Below are positions 39,181-63,451 of a stretch of DNA of 64,000 nt, piece by piece. The notes beneath the pieces are model-generated. The model made no database searches and was not told the origin of the DNA. It worked only from the letters and a program-made list of their open reading frames with translations. Numbering within the stretch: the first letter of the stretch is position 1; the number at the start of each line of letters is the position of its first letter. This DNA comes from an uncultured Massilia sp. (lineage in GTDB: Bacteria; Pseudomonadota; Gammaproteobacteria; Burkholderiales; Burkholderiaceae_D): contig CAJYXO010000159.1 of assembly GCA_913778765.1 (NCBI GenBank), forward strand, positions 1 to 64,000, written 5' to 3'. A program made the position numbers and the translations under genes.

Positions 39181-39651
39181 CTGCCCGAGATATCCACAAA
39201 TCACAAGTCATCCACAGGGATATGTGGACAATGTGGATAAGCTGTTTACCTGTAAACTTTGCTTCTGCTCAGGTCATACACAGTTCATCCACAATCGACT
39301 GTGGATAAGCGACGCTGGGATGCACTTGCCCATCGATCGGCCAGCCTCGTGAAGCAAGTGGATCCGGAACAAGCCTGTCAAGTACGCCCTCCAGCGCAGT
39401 CCATGCGTTGTGGATAACTTCAAGCGCGACGAAACCCTCCACCCAGCAGCAAGCCCGGCACTCATAAATAAACCCCTGTGAAAACAGGGCGCAGATAAAA
39501 CAACAGGCCCGCCGGATGACCGTGCGGGCCTGTGGATGACTCTGTGGGCAGTTCTGTGGATGAGCGGTTGACATCCCTGTGCACAGCAGGTGGAACAGCC
39601 TGTGCAAAGCCGGTGGACCAGGCTGTGCTCAAGCTGTGCCCAGCCGGTGGA
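39181..39651. other. 471-base gap with a DnaA-box cluster
   Basis: Three perfect TGTGGATAA boxes occur at 39232-39240, 39300-39308 and 39409-39417, all in the same orientation, with an ATATCCACA at 39190-39198 and several 'TCCACA'/'TGTGGAT' near-matches. There is no CTA-rich trio or clear AT-rich unwinding stretch beside them. The right half is rich in 'TGTG' words and holds a terminator for glmU. DnaA titration site, origin remnant or DnaA-regulated promoter are the options. Confidence 0.6.
39495..39531 (-). terminator. Probable terminator downstream of glmU
   Basis: On the minus strand an 8-bp stem (AGGCCCGC / GCGGGCCT) with an 11-base loop is followed by GTTGTTTTA. The U-run is imperfect, so efficiency is uncertain. 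Confidence 0.5.
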
Positions 39652-52463: not shown

Positions 52464-53579
52464 ATGTTAGTTGGCGTTCCGAAAGAAATCAAAAACCACG
52501 AATACCGGGTCGGCCTGACCCCGCCCAGCGTCCACGAACTGGTCGCGCGCGGCCACCAGGTGCTGGTGCAATCCGGCGCCGGCGCCGAGATCGGTCTGTC
52601 GGATGAGCAATACACGGCGGCCGGCGCCGCCATCGTCGCCACGGCGAAGGAAATCTTCGAGCGCGCCGACATGATCGTGAAGGTCAAGGAGCCGCAACCC
52701 CAGGAATGCGCGATGCTGCGCGAAGGCCAGATCCTGTACACCTATCTGCACCTGGCGCCGGATCCGGAACAAACCGCGGCGCTGGTGAAATCCGGCGCCG
52801 TCTGCATCGCCTATGAAACCATCACCGGGCCGGGCGGCGGCCTGCCGCTGCTGGCGCCGATGAGCGAGGTGGCGGGACGCATGTCGATCCAGGCCGGCGC
52901 CAGCCACCTGGAAAAGTCGAAGGGCGGCATGGGCCTGCTGCTGGGCGGCGTGCCGGGCGTGGCGCCGGGCCACGTGGTGATCATCGGCGCCGGCGTGGTC
53001 GGCACGAATGCGCTGCAGATGGCGGTCGGTACCGGCGCGCGCGTGAGCGTGCTGGACAAGAACGTGGATCGCCTGCGCCAGCTCGACTTGGTCTACGGCA
53101 ACCGGATCGCGACCCTGTACTCGAACGCCCACGCGCTCGAGGAAGCGGTGCTGTCCGCCGACCTGGTGATCGGCGGCGTGCTGGTGCCGGGTGCGGCGGC
53201 GCCCAAGCTGGTGACCCGCGACATGGTCTCGCGCATGAAGAAGGGGGCGGTGGTGGTCGACGTCGCGATCGACCAGGGCGGCTGTTTCGAGACCTCGCAT
53301 CCGACCACCCACGCCGATCCGACCTTCGTGGTCGACGGCGTGGTGCACTATTGCGTGGCGAACATGCCGGGCGCGGTGGCGAGGACCTCGACCTTCGCCC
53401 TGAACAACGCCACCATCGGCCATGCGGTGGCGCTGGCCAACAAGGGCTGGCGCCAGGCGCTGCGCGACGATCCGCACCTCAAGAATGGCCTGAACGTCTG
53501 CCAGGGCAAGGTCACCTACGCCGCCGTGGCCAAGGACCTGGGTTACGACTACGTGCCGGCGGATACCCTGCTGGCCTGA
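52464..53579 (+). CDS. ald: Alanine dehydrogenase
   Basis: A 371-residue NAD-dependent enzyme interconverting alanine and pyruvate. Features: N-terminal '[20 protein letters not shown]', '[12 protein letters not shown]', the catalytic-region string '[14 protein letters not shown]' and '[26 protein letters not shown]', the Rossmann motif '[18 protein letters not shown]', and '[23 protein letters not shown]'. Length is standard. GGAGGAAGAC five to seven bases upstream supports the start. It lies after putA on the same strand (73 bases), separated by a terminator. It overlaps the converging MTA/SAH nucleosidase by 31 bases. Confidence 0.95.
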
Positions 53580-54334
53580 ACCCGCGCCTGCCGGCAAAAC
53601 TGCCTGACGACATGAAAGGCATATTGCGCGGCCACCGACTTCACGAAACGCATGAAGTCGGTGGCCGCGTTTTCATTGGCGTTGTCGGAAATCGTACGGA
53701 TCACGCCGAACGGGATTCCCAGCTCGAAACACACCTGCGCCACCGCGGCGCCTTCCATCTCCACCGCCAACAGCCCAGGCAAAGCCTCGCCGAGGGCCCT
53801 GATACGCTCCCTGTGGCTGACGAACTGGTCGCCGCTGCCGACGAGTCCCCGGTGCATGCGCGGCGCCTGGAGCGCGAATGCGGCCCTTTCCTGGGCATCG
53901 ATGGCGTCCATGAACTCGCGTTCCAGGAAACGCTGGGCAGCATGGGACAGTTCCAGCGCCATTTGCCGGTCGCTGGCGAAATGGCGCAGGCCCGTCAGCG
54001 GCACTTCAAAACGTGGAAACAGGGGACTGGCATCCATGTCGTGCTGGACCAGGGATTCGGCCACGACGATGTCGCCGACACGCACGGAGGGGTCGCCGGA
54101 ACCGGCCACGCCCGTAAACAGGATGTGGGTAACACCGAACTTCTCCACAAGCGTGGTGGCCGTCATGGCGGCTGCAACCTTGCCTATACGCGATAAAACG
54201 GCCACAGCGTCGATTTCCCAGAGTTTTCCGGTCCAGTACTCACGCATGCCATGGATGAGCTTGTAGGGCCTCTCCATGGCTTCTACGAGCCCCTGCTGTT
54301 CTTCGTGCAAGGCGCTGATGATCCCCAATCGCAT
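53549..54334 (-). CDS. 5'-methylthioadenosine/S-adenosylhomocysteine nucleosidase-type protein
   Basis: A 261-residue purine/uridine-phosphorylase-superfamily enzyme: '[20 protein letters not shown]' at the N-terminus (MTN opening), '[57 protein letters not shown]', '[36 protein letters not shown]' with the catalytic Asp region. It cleaves MTA and SAH in the methionine salvage/activated-methyl cycle. It is a bit longer than E. coli MtnN (232), mostly from mid-protein insertions. The 3' coding end contains a perfect 16-bp stem that also serves the converging ald transcript. The exact subtype (MtnN or relative) needs alignment. Confidence 0.88.
53628..53673 (+). terminator. 16-bp perfect stem after ald, inside the converging nucleosidase gene
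   Basis: GCGGCCACCGACTTCA / TGAAGTCGGTGGCCGC with a 9-base loop, then GTTTTC, beginning 49 bases past the ald stop codon. It is wholly inside the coding sequence of the opposite-strand gene, around its '[16 protein letters not shown]' segment. Confidence 0.7.
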
Positions 54335-54423
54335 GTTTTGCCTCTGTTCTGATGGCCTGAAAGCCGGTTTTCGGCAGTTTGCAGCCCAGTGTATTAATAA
54401 AACAAAGATGTATATAAAAACTG

Positions 54424-54619
54424 GTAGTAGATAGTAAACGCGGTTTCCGCTGTGGATAAACCGGGATTTGTCTACAGCGTCAAGGGTTTACGTGCTGCCG
54501 GATGAGCTGGAAAAGCATTGTACGGGAGCTGGACGGAACTTGGACAAAAACGCCCTGGTCTGCAAAAACCGGGTTTCTGCACATTTGCTACTGTGGATAT
54601 GCAGGCGCTTTTCCACAGT
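54424..54619 (+). repeat. 196-bp direct repeat, module A
   Basis: Begins GGTAGTAGATAGTAAACGC and ends with the inverted DnaA-box pair (TGTGGATATGCAGG ... TTTTCCACAG). Sides match modules B and C in order and spacing; the middle is diverged. Confidence 0.75.
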
Positions 54620-54978
54620 CGAGCTGGTTTCTCAGGCGATTTTGCCGTCTACACTTGCCGGTTTTGCATCGAAACGTCTGTCGGCAGGACGCTGAGCCGG
54701 CTTTTGGTGGCGCAACTGGCGCTGCCACTTTCTTTCTGTAGACCTCAAAACGGTCGAGCAGTGCCGGCAATGCCGTTTATCGACCACGTGATGCCGAGAC
54801 ATTGCAGCGTCTGCGTTTCGAGATCGTCGTTCTCTCGATGCGCCAGGCATTCAGTGCTTCCTGCAGACAGGCTTCTTTCTCGATGCAGGGTTGGCCTTGC
54901 CGTCAGTCCGTTCTTGCGCCCGGTTTTCCACGCGCAGCGGCTTCTTTGTATTAGTTAACTTGGATAGATATTTAATCT

Positions 54979-55174
54979 GGTAGTAGATAGTAAACGCCTG
55001 CCGAACTGTGGATAAGCCGGGTTTACTCCACAGGCTCAAGGGTTTACGTGCGTCTGAAGCTGCTGGACAAGCCTTGCGTCTGGCAAGGACGTTAACTGGA
55101 AAAAAAAACGGCTGTGCCCAACTCGGGCGGTTTCGCACATTCGATCCTGTGGATATGCAGGGGCTTGTCCACAG
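54979..55174 (+). repeat. 196-bp direct repeat, module B
   Basis: Same start GGTAGTAGATAGTAAACGC as module A and same end design (TGTGGATATGCAGG ... CTTGTCCACAG). Shares 'CAAGGGTTTACGTGC' with module A. Confidence 0.75.
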
Positions 55175-55312
55175 AAGTCTTTGCCGGCAGGGTCGAAGCC
55201 GTGGTTTCGGACTGGTTGGCGGCCTGGCCGGAGCCGAAAAATTTTTACGGGCGAACTTTGCAGTTCGAAACGCGTCCTCAGGTTTACAACCAAGACCTTG
55301 TATACGAATAGT

Positions 55313-55507
55313 GGTAGTAGTTAACGGTGGTGCTCATCTGTGGATAAACCAGGTTTACGCCACAAGATCAGGCGTTTACGGTTCGCATAAGCCAGTGGGC
55401 TGATCCTGTATGTTGCTGGTGGAAAAAATGGATAAAAATCGGCGCTGTGGTAAAAGCCGGGTTTTCGCACAATCGATACCTGTGGATATGCAGAAGCTTA
55501 TCCACAG
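55313..55507 (+). repeat. 195-bp direct repeat, module C
   Basis: Begins GGTAGTAGTTAAC and ends TGTGGATATGCAGAAGC then TTATCCACAG, giving a perfect inverted DnaA box. It is the most diverged copy in the middle but keeps 'GCGTTTACG' and 'TTTCGCACAATCGATACC'. Confidence 0.75.
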
Positions 55508-55590
55508 TGGATGCAGGTGTTCTAAATCGATGACGATCTGGTAAGCTTGCTCAAGCGAAGCATCACCGTATCCGGAATGGAGGGGGCAGC

Positions 55591-57216
55591 GTGGAATCGG
55601 CAGGGGATTACGACTACATTATCGTGGGCGCCGGCACCGCCGGTTGCGTGCTCGCCAATCGCCTGACCCGCAAGCCGGACGTGCAGGTCCTGCTGATCGA
55701 AGCCGGCGGCAAGGACGATTACCTGTGGATCCACATCCCGGTCGGCTACCTCTACTGCATCGACAATCCGCGCACCGACTGGCTGTTCCGCACCGAAGCC
55801 GACCCCGGCCTGGCCGGCCGTGCACTGCTCTACCCGCGCGGTAAGGTGCTGGGCGGCTCGTCCTCGATCAACGGCATGATCTACATGCGCGGCCAGGCCG
55901 GCGATTACGACCGCTGGGCCGAGGTCAGCGGCGATCCATCCTGGCGCTGGGAGCACGTGCTGCCCCTGTTCCGGCGCAGCGAAGACCACCACCGCGGCGA
56001 AAGCGAAGTCCACGGCAGCGGCGGCGAGTGGCGGGTCGAGCGCCAGCGCCTGTCCTGGGAAATCCTTGACGCCTTCCGCGAAGCCGCCGGCGAAAACGGC
56101 ATCCCGAAAATCGAGGATTTCAACGGCGGCGACAACGCCGGCTGCGCCTATTTCGAAGTCAACCAGCGCCGCGGCATCCGTTTGAACACAGCGAAAGCCT
56201 TCCTGCGGCCGGCGTCCCAGCGCCCGAATCTCACCATCATGACCGGCTGCCACGTCGAAAAGCTGCTGGTCGAGCAGGGAGACTATGGCGCGCTCTGCCG
56301 CGGCGTGCAGTTCACCGGCGGCGGCCGCGCCTTTCACGCCACCGCGCGCCGCGAAACCCTGCTGGCGGCTGGCGCGATCGGCTCGCCGACCATCCTGCAA
56401 TTGTCCGGCATCGGCGCCGCGCCCAGCCTGGCCCGGCACGGCATCCGGCCGCTGGTCGATGCGCCGGGCGTGGGCGAGAACCTGCAGGATCATTTGCAGT
56501 TGCGGATGGTCTACCGGATCACCGGCGCGCCGTCGCTGAACACGACCGCCGCAAACTGGTTCGGCAAGGCGAAGATCGGCTTGCAGTACATGCTGTTCCA
56601 GAGCGGGCCGATGTCGATGGCGCCGTCGCAGCTGGGCGCGTTTGCCCGCTCCGACGACAGCCAGGCCACACCGAACCTGCAATACCATGTGCAGCCGCTG
56701 TCGCTGGAAAAATTCGGCGATCCGCTGCACGGTTTTCCAGCCTTCACCGCCAGCGTCTGCAACCTGCGTCCGACCTCGCGCGGCCACGTCCGCATCGCTT
56801 CGAACGACAGTTACGCCGCGCCGAAGATCACGCCGAACTACCTGAGCACGGCGGAAGACCGGACCGTGGCGGCGCACGCGCTGGCCCTGACGCGCCGCAT
56901 CGTCGCCTCACCGGCGCTGGCGAAATACCGGCCCGAGGAGTTCAAACCGGGCCCGCATTACCGTACCGAGGAAGAACTGGCCGAAGCCGCCGGCCTGATC
57001 GGCACCACGATCTTCCACCCGGTCGGCACCTGCCGCATGGGCAAACCGGACGATCCGCTGGCGGTGGTCGACAGCGCACTGCGGGTCAAGGGCGTGCGCG
57101 GACTGCGCGTGGTGGATGCGTCGATCATGCCGTTCATTACTTCCGGCAACACGAATTCGCCGACGCTGATGATTGCCGAAAAAGCGGCCCAGCTGCTCGT
57201 GGCCCAGCACGCTTAA
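55591..57216 (+). CDS. GMC-family FAD oxidoreductase (choline dehydrogenase-like)
   Basis: A 541-residue flavoprotein. FAD-binding 'YDYIIVGAGTAGCVLANRL', GMC signature 1 'YPRGKVLGGSSSINGMIYMRG', signature 2 'LLAAGAIGSPTILQLSGIG', and C-terminal catalytic His region 'HPVGTCRMG' with 'VVDASIMPFITSGNTNSPTLMIAEKAA'. It oxidises alcohols, with choline or polyethylene-glycol-type substrates common; none can be assigned. A GTG start with GGAGGGG four bases upstream is used. It begins 80 bases after the origin-like region and runs into a LivG-type ABC gene 13 bases downstream, so they probably share an operon. Confidence 0.92.
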   Translation: MESAGDYDYIIVGAGTAGCVLANRLTRKPDVQVLLIEAGGKDDYLWIHIPVGYLYCIDNPRTDWLFRTEADPGLAGRALLYPRGKVLGGSSSINGMIYMRGQAGDYDRWAEVSGDPSWRWEHVLPLFRRSEDHHRGESEVHGSGGEWRVERQRLSWEILDAFREAAGENGIPKIEDFNGGDNAGCAYFEVNQRRGIRLNTAKAFLRPASQRPNLTIMTGCHVEKLLVEQGDYGALCRGVQFTGGGRAFHATARRETLLAAGAIGSPTILQLSGIGAAPSLARHGIRPLVDAPGVGENLQDHLQLRMVYRITGAPSLNTTAANWFGKAKIGLQYMLFQSGPMSMAPSQLGAFARSDDSQATPNLQYHVQPLSLEKFGDPLHGFPAFTASVCNLRPTSRGHVRIASNDSYAAPKITPNYLSTAEDRTVAAHALALTRRIVASPALAKYRPEEFKPGPHYRTEEELAEAAGLIGTTIFHPVGTCRMGKPDDPLAVVDSALRVKGVRGLRVVDASIMPFITSGNTNSPTLMIAEKAAQLLVAQHA

Positions 57217-62274: not shown

Positions 62275-62290
62275 TGTTTCACGTGGAACA
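62275..62290. promoter_or_regulatory. parS-like centromere site 1
   Basis: TGTTTCACGTGGAACA fits TGTTNCACGTGNAACA at every fixed position. ParB binds such sites near the chromosomal origin. It follows the TSUP stop codon directly. Confidence 0.8.
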
Positions 62291-63435: not shown

Positions 63436-63451
63436 GGTTTCACGTGAAACA
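63436..63451. promoter_or_regulatory. parS-like centromere site 2
   Basis: GGTTTCACGTGAAACA differs from the parS consensus only in its first base. It lies 104 bases upstream of mnmG. Confidence 0.7.

Follow-up and report, generated by a model that had tools for sequence, protein, structure and literature searches.

A tandem of three homologous units, distant from dnaA, as the very likely chromosomal origin of an uncultured Massilia species

The intergenic gap between an MTA/SAH nucleosidase gene (53549-54334, minus strand) and a GMC oxidoreductase gene (55591-57216, plus strand) of an uncultured Massilia sp. is, as judged from its sequence and its surroundings, very likely the chromosomal origin of replication (oriC), in which three homologous units follow one another in tandem. 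Searches for an origin usually start beside the initiator gene dnaA. This gene is absent from the window, by which we mean the whole stretch of 64,000 nucleotides that was analyzed, and the genome has a single strong DnaA match, on contig C190, in line with an earlier note on this DNA, which had seen no dnaA nearby. The note had offered three readings of the gap: oriC itself, an amplified variant, or a DnaA-titration site. The first two, taken together, fit best with the conserved layout, with a switch in KOPS-like octamers and with parS-like clusters next to the element, and less clearly with the position of dif.

Results

Three homologous units share one intergenic gap

Three homologous copies of one origin unit, all in the same direction, are located at positions 54401-55507 of the window (Table 1). 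Each unit is ~217 bp long by alignment, and the start-to-start spacing is 556 bp from unit A to unit B and ~332 bp from unit B to unit C. On the plus strand, the AT-rich flank of every unit is followed by a TAG-rich run and a spacer, and these by DnaA box 1 (TGTGGATAA) and an IHF-like site; next comes a stretch containing conserved GGA and AAA, and the distal inverted box pair closes the unit. Three direct repeats of about 196 bp had been described before; the three direct copies are present, but the homologous unit is longer. The inverted box pair, previously placed about 140 bp away, was found where expected: the first distal box starts 141-142 bp past box 1, and its inverted partner, which is degenerate in some units, follows 8 bp beyond it. 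AT-rich DNA adjoins the box in the units. Units A and B run into such DNA as had been noted, and unit C is flanked by it as well, although its flank is weaker in AT than those of A and B.

Table 1. Features of the candidate origin and of its surroundings (window coordinates)
Feature	Position	Strand	Basis
Origin unit A	54401..54618	+	Profile R2 match, 113.5 bits, E 3.1e-32
Origin unit B	54957..55174	+	Profile R2 match, 112.5 bits
Origin unit C	55288..55507	+	Profile R2 match, 120.9 bits
AT-rich flank, unit A, candidate unwinding element	54395..54421	.	AT 85% at 54400-54419
AT-rich flank, unit B	54950..54977	.	Sequence composition
Moderately AT-rich flank, unit C	55284..55308	.	Sequence composition
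Trio-like TAG run, unit A, one-base register slip	54422..54440	+	Sequence
Trio-like TAG run, unit B, one-base slip	54978..54996	+	Sequence
Trio-like run, unit C	55309..55326	+	Sequence; weaker than in A and B
DnaA box 1, unit A (TGTGGATAA)	54451..54459	+	Motif match
DnaA box 1, unit B	55007..55015	+	Motif match
DnaA box 1, unit C	55339..55347	+	Motif match
IHF-like site, unit A	54478..54490	+	7/9 specified bases, counted by eye
IHF-like site, unit B	55034..55046	+	7/9 specified bases, counted by eye
IHF-like site, unit C	55366..55378	+	7/9 specified bases, counted by eye
Distal inverted box pair, unit A, second box degenerate	54592..54617	.	Motif match
Distal inverted box pair, unit B, second box degenerate	55148..55173	.	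Motif match
Distal inverted box pair, unit C: TGTGGATAT and perfect minus-strand box	55481..55506	.	Motif match
parS-like site	62275..62290	.	Consensus match
Second parS-like site, one mismatch to palindrome	63436..63451	.	Consensus match

DnaA boxes are concentrated at the element

The motif TGTGGATAW occurs 15 times in the window, compared to 0.19 expected from 100 shuffles, and 7 of these 15 matches fall into the gap. The strict DnaA box, defined as [TA]TATCCACA, was found 18 times in 2.38 Mb of sequence from five relatives (119 pieces of 20 kb each), and 5 of the 18 were located in the element-bearing piece of genome G042. The DnaA-box cluster at the element is far above background. Among 147 units from the genus, box 1 is altered to TGTTGATAA in 11, to TGTGGACAA in 16, to TGTGGAAAA in 4, and to TGTGGAGAA in 1. 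In another family of the order, one locus (L358; G377:C77:2500-5500) holds 14 perfect DnaA boxes in 3 kb together with unit matches, several of the boxes following each other at 11-12-bp steps and on both strands.

The lrp-glmU gap (39190-39417), at a distance of 15 kb from the element, holds a second cluster of DnaA boxes. This cluster contains four strict boxes without a unit match, and box-like sequences near it extend by eye to ~39560. At 15 kb from the origin, it might serve for titration or as an accessory site. The roles might also be reversed, with the lrp-glmU cluster as the functional origin and the three units as accessory sites. The presence of four strict boxes in the cluster of the window, together with conservation of the adjoining Lrp gene in 13/13 genomes, would agree with such an arrangement, and the polarity data given below cannot separate sites that are 15 kb apart. 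But the same cluster has only 0-2 strict boxes in 13 relatives (at least one in 12/13), no unit match was found at this place in the window or in the relatives (best 8.3 bits), and the region matches mostly on the Lrp gene and the end of glmU, not on the gap. We consider the chance that the origin is located there to be slight in the extreme.

IHF-like sites and trio-like runs

A site resembling what we take to be the IHF consensus is found ~20 bp downstream of box 1 in each unit of the window. With at most one mismatch in nine positions, such a site is present in 71 of the 147 genus units, compared to ~1.3% of shuffles; another 75 units, including the three of the window, show two mismatches (9.7% of shuffles).

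The earlier note had also pointed to a run resembling the DnaA-trio beside the box. A run rich in TAG/TAA indeed sits on the correct strand between the box and the AT-rich DNA, and its density is above that of shuffled sequence: the 24-nt trio zone contains on average 3.73 TAG/TAA triplets in the 147 genus units, relative to 1.46 in composition-keeping shuffles, and four or more are present in 65% of the units vs. 1.9% of the shuffles. The strict register, in contrast, is absent from all three window units, and the run of unit C is weaker. According to the published rule for the trio of a basal unwinding system (BUS), as worded in the excerpt of PMC8287927, at least three unbroken NAN triplets should be found no more than 16 bp from the box. 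None of the three window units shows such an unbroken series of triplets (0/3), even when its start is allowed to lie up to 24 nt from the box. Strict counting of trios had been expected to support a BUS, but came out otherwise: 39/147 genus units and 9/34 units from other genera pass, compared to 32-42% of shuffled flanks. After relaxing the spacer to 24 nt, 32/34 units of other genera pass (shuffles 39%), as do 60/147 of the genus (shuffles 53%). The commonest spacer between box and run is 13 (89/147 units), which is also the commonest value in the excerpt of PMC8287927. Taken together, the element appears BUS-like in its layout; because the genus units pass the trio rule no more often than shuffles do, we do not claim strict BUS membership.

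The units are conserved in the genus and in most of the family

The earlier note had proposed a comparison with related genomes, and the layout turned out to be conserved: the element was matched in 62/62 genus genomes searched, our own included, and profile R1 of the unit found a match in 215/245 family genomes, covering 38/44 genera. Fifty of the genus genomes were read unit by unit (12 of the 62 were not among them, and locus L014, which comes from the genome that also supplied L126, was dropped beforehand). Three direct units are present in 47 of the 50 and two convergent units in 3. Two of the 12 remaining genomes, G006 and G047, gave two profile matches instead of three. In the genomes with two convergent units (G001, G029, G058; loci L107, L120, L123), the units are ~45 bp apart with their AT-rich ends facing outward. 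Their six units group with the A/B type, and unit C was not found in these three genomes.

In a tree of the 147 genus units, the 47 third units (C) form one clade with a support of 0.999, and first and second units are intermixed in a lineage-dependent manner. After addition of the units from 16 other genomes, C (0.944) and A/B (0.934) stay genus-only clades, and no unit of these 16 genomes was placed inside either of them. By its sequence, unit C is distinct within the genus.

Family genomes carry one to four copies, commonly two or three as judged by eye. A wider profile (R2) matched 212/300 genomes of the order from 115/139 genera, many of these matches being weak. The exact core of the A/B units was found in 87 stretches, the named records including Massilia, Telluria, Janthinobacterium, Duganella, Pseudoduganella, Rugamonas, and Paucimonas. 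One contig labeled as a Verrucomicrobia MAG (L314; JAMFSG010000352.1) also has this exact core, whose other matches belong to the Massilia family; this is probably due to a binning error.

An alignment of 30 genus units shows conservation of the boxes, the trio-like run, the AT-rich part, and the IHF-like site. This bears on the number of active units. If the gap is oriC, one unit might do the unwinding, with the others being inactive copies or binding platforms, as the alteration of box 1 in some copies and the single unwinding element of E. coli would suggest; but the boxes, the trio-like run, and the IHF-like site are kept in all three units of the alignment, 47/50 genomes maintain three units, and the number in family genomes varies between one and four. 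A single unwinding unit is quite conceivable, and we lean only a little against it. That the gap is instead the origin of an integrated plasmid or mobile element, as repeated boxes recalling plasmid origins might indicate, has practically no chance of being correct. The surrounding genes of the window are of chromosomal type and function in metabolism and transport, matches are found throughout the family, and the position is shared: in most of 13 genus genomes, the Lrp gene is located ~15 kb to one side and parS-like sites to the other.

The element is separated from dnaA

The distance between the element and dnaA is 264-390 kb in 12 of the 13 near-complete genus genomes and 789 kb in the remaining one (G010). 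In the ten unit-bearing family genomes for which this distance was taken, the units are 19 to 363 kb from dnaA; in the six others, it may run across a contig end. Of 14 dnaA loci, including our own, 11 hold an upstream gap, each with one strict box. No unit match was found at the 14 dnaA loci of the genus (best 5.6 bits), and the dnaA-dnaN gap of our own genome measures ~70 bp. In a search for DnaA, genomes G042 and G060 gave seven and six equal-scoring weak PF00308 matches scattered over their chromosomes; our guess is that these represent the ATPase of a multicopy insertion sequence.

In 12 genomes from eight other families of the order, a unit match is located between dnaA and dnaN. These genomes were picked for matches near a contig start, and 12/12 is not a rate. 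The matches are weaker (best 14 to 59 bits); seven genomes have one match and five have two, some of the second ones overlapping the first on the other strand. Since related matches are found in the dnaA-dnaN gap of other families, albeit in a selected sample, we propose that the unit left dnaA and multiplied: its location in the dnaA-dnaN gap is probably ancestral, and in the Massilia family the origin would have become separated from dnaA and the unit copied.

Position markers: parS, KOPS, dif, and skew

Sites were called parS-like by comparison with a sequence that we assume to be the parS consensus. In 13/13 near-complete genus genomes, parS-like clusters are located 1.8-11 kb from the element (distances taken by hand). 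Among 18 family genomes, all 16 that bear units have parS-like sites 2.5-26 kb from them (likewise by hand). The remaining two, the small genomes G109 and G132 of genus g7 (L361, L362), gave no unit match; here, dnaA has a parS-like site at a distance of ~14 kb and is separated from dnaN by ~60 bp.

For skew and KOPS, 20-kb samples were taken from relatives with near-complete chromosomes, because our own assembly consists of 297 contigs. In G042, both chromosome arms show a polar orientation of the KOPS-like octamer GGGNAGGG. This octamer was counted in 5 of the 13 near-complete genomes, in all of which the element has higher coordinates than dnaA. Pooled over these five, the region left of dnaA has a forward/reverse count of 23/45, the interval from dnaA to the element one of 34/77, and the far side of the element one of 59/11, the last figure being the sum of 57/11 and the element-bearing piece of G042 (2/0), which falls outside the zones and was added to the right side by hand. 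The interval between dnaA and the element differs from the right side with p=6.5e-13, a pooled value that overstates the difference because the five genomes are related, and, genome by genome, with p values of 0.0003 to 0.03; it does not differ from the region left of dnaA (p=0.74). In single genomes, the counts are even between dnaA and the element of G042 (16/17) and left of dnaA in G031 (4/4). The element lies at a switch of replication polarity, as marked by KOPS-like octamers in five related genomes.

One dif-like site was found in each of the 13 genomes. Its antipode is closer to the element in nine and to dnaA in four; dif symmetry favors dnaA in G012 and G018, and in G010 and G054 the antipode is >0.9 Mb away from both. 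In G010:C1, where dnaA and the element are 789 kb apart, it is >1 Mb from either, which suggests that this genome carries a large rearrangement. GC skew changes from -0.0139 left of dnaA to +0.0032 between dnaA and the element and +0.0113 to the right, values that are weak and confounded by gene strand. GC skew within the window has no clear switch, third-position skew of G042 is noisy, AT skew is likewise weak, and a 6-mer score trained on the arms of G042 gave a mild trend only. The skew minimum proposed earlier as a check is too weak in plain GC skew to decide the matter; the KOPS switch lies at the element, not at dnaA. In summary, parS and KOPS are clear for the element, and dif, although ambiguous, leans toward it.

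These data also bear on the possibility that the element serves to titrate or reactivate DnaA, with the true origin beside dnaA. The known loci of this kind, datA and DARS, carry boxes and an IHF site, without an unwinding element, and are located away from the origin. Boxes plus an IHF-like site describe our element equally well, one strict box is present upstream of dnaA, and the dif antipode is closer to dnaA in the 4/13 genomes mentioned above. On the other hand, the KOPS polarity between dnaA and the element is like that of the left arm and unlike that of the right arm, parS-like clusters are found beside the element and not beside dnaA, AT-rich and trio-like parts that titration does not need are conserved, and the dnaA loci of the genus offer no unit and, in our own genome, very little space between dnaA and dnaN. 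A datA-like or DARS-like function in place of an origin is very unlikely. We rejected assignment of the element to datA or DARS, in view of the retained AT-rich and trio-like parts and its location at the polarity switch.

Discussion

Comparison with known origins

The unit resembles the left half of the Escherichia coli oriC, in which AT-rich DNA, TGTGGATAA, and an ATCAA-type site occur in the same order, on the same strand, and with the same spacing. On the MG1655 oriC, our profile falls in register with both R1 and the IHF site, but this match is marginal (11.3 bits, E 0.012). In contrast to E. coli oriC, which contains one such half, one to four whole units are present here. The E. coli dnaA gene is located ~44 kb from oriC. 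With the BUS of Bacillus subtilis, the element shares the succession of DnaA box, spacer, trio-like run read 3' to 5' from the box, and AT-rich DNA; it differs from it by the slipped or mixed trio register, the additional IHF-like site, and the repetition of the unit. The same profile also matches the dnaA-dnaN gap origins of other families (the 12 selected genomes from eight families), from which the units of the Massilia family are distinguished by their distance from dnaA and by stronger profile matches.

The boxes, the trio-like run, the IHF-like site, and the AT-rich flank are conserved sequence. Binding, bending, unwinding, and loading are deduced by analogy from E. coli and B. subtilis. 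DnaA would bind to box 1 and to the distal inverted box pair of each unit, and IHF would bend the DNA at the site ~20 bp downstream of box 1, thereby bringing the distal boxes near the opening DNA. A DnaA oligomer would spread from box 1 over the spacer, 3' to 5', onto the TAG-rich strand; the AT-rich left flank would open, and the helicase could then be loaded. According to the excerpt of PMC6669920, the DnaA filament of B. subtilis is loaded 3' to 5' from the box onto the trio strand, and IHF bending in E. coli has been proposed to bring distal boxes near the opening DNA.

Displaced origins have already been suspected in relatives. For Cupriavidus metallidurans CHR1, a GC-skew transition ~90 kb from dnaA has been reported, next to 213 nt with three perfect boxes; the excerpt of that paper describes no unit architecture, trio, or IHF site for this predicted origin (PMC2864759). 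In the excerpts of two further papers, the origin position of Burkholderia cenocepacia chromosome 1 is given as uncertain (PMC4948915), and two putative origins are given for Ralstonia pickettii (PMC4403523). Our search of the open-licence literature retrieved nothing on the origin of Massilia or Oxalobacteraceae among the matches listed (DoriC was outside its scope, and a prediction may exist), and an oriC that appears to be built of repeated units was not found described among them.

A modular origin?

If the gap is oriC, it could be modular and polymeric, an idea that we put forward tentatively and regard as somewhat less likely than not. At least two units would each open DNA on their own, and C would be specialized in a way that A and B are not. 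The species with two convergent units would possess symmetric origins that open at both outer ends, one for each helicase. The modular architecture would go back to a move of the unit from the dnaA-dnaN gap to a place near parS. The unit provides a natural series for studying these questions: its copy number varies from one to four, its copies may be direct or convergent, and they are found both next to dnaA and at a great distance from it. With this series, one could ask what number of unwinding sites is required in an origin and how the loading of two helicases is achieved, the latter being described as unclear in excerpts of PMC10201434 and PMC13326638.

A displaced origin would also have practical consequences. 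Genome records are often opened at dnaA, and an origin located elsewhere affects skew plots, coverage-based estimates of growth rate, and origin databases. If the element is oriC, a large group of environmental bacteria has its origin ~300 kb away from dnaA. A soil bacterium of the Massilia type would then, very probably, start copying its chromosome at a gap containing three units, hundreds of kb away from dnaA.
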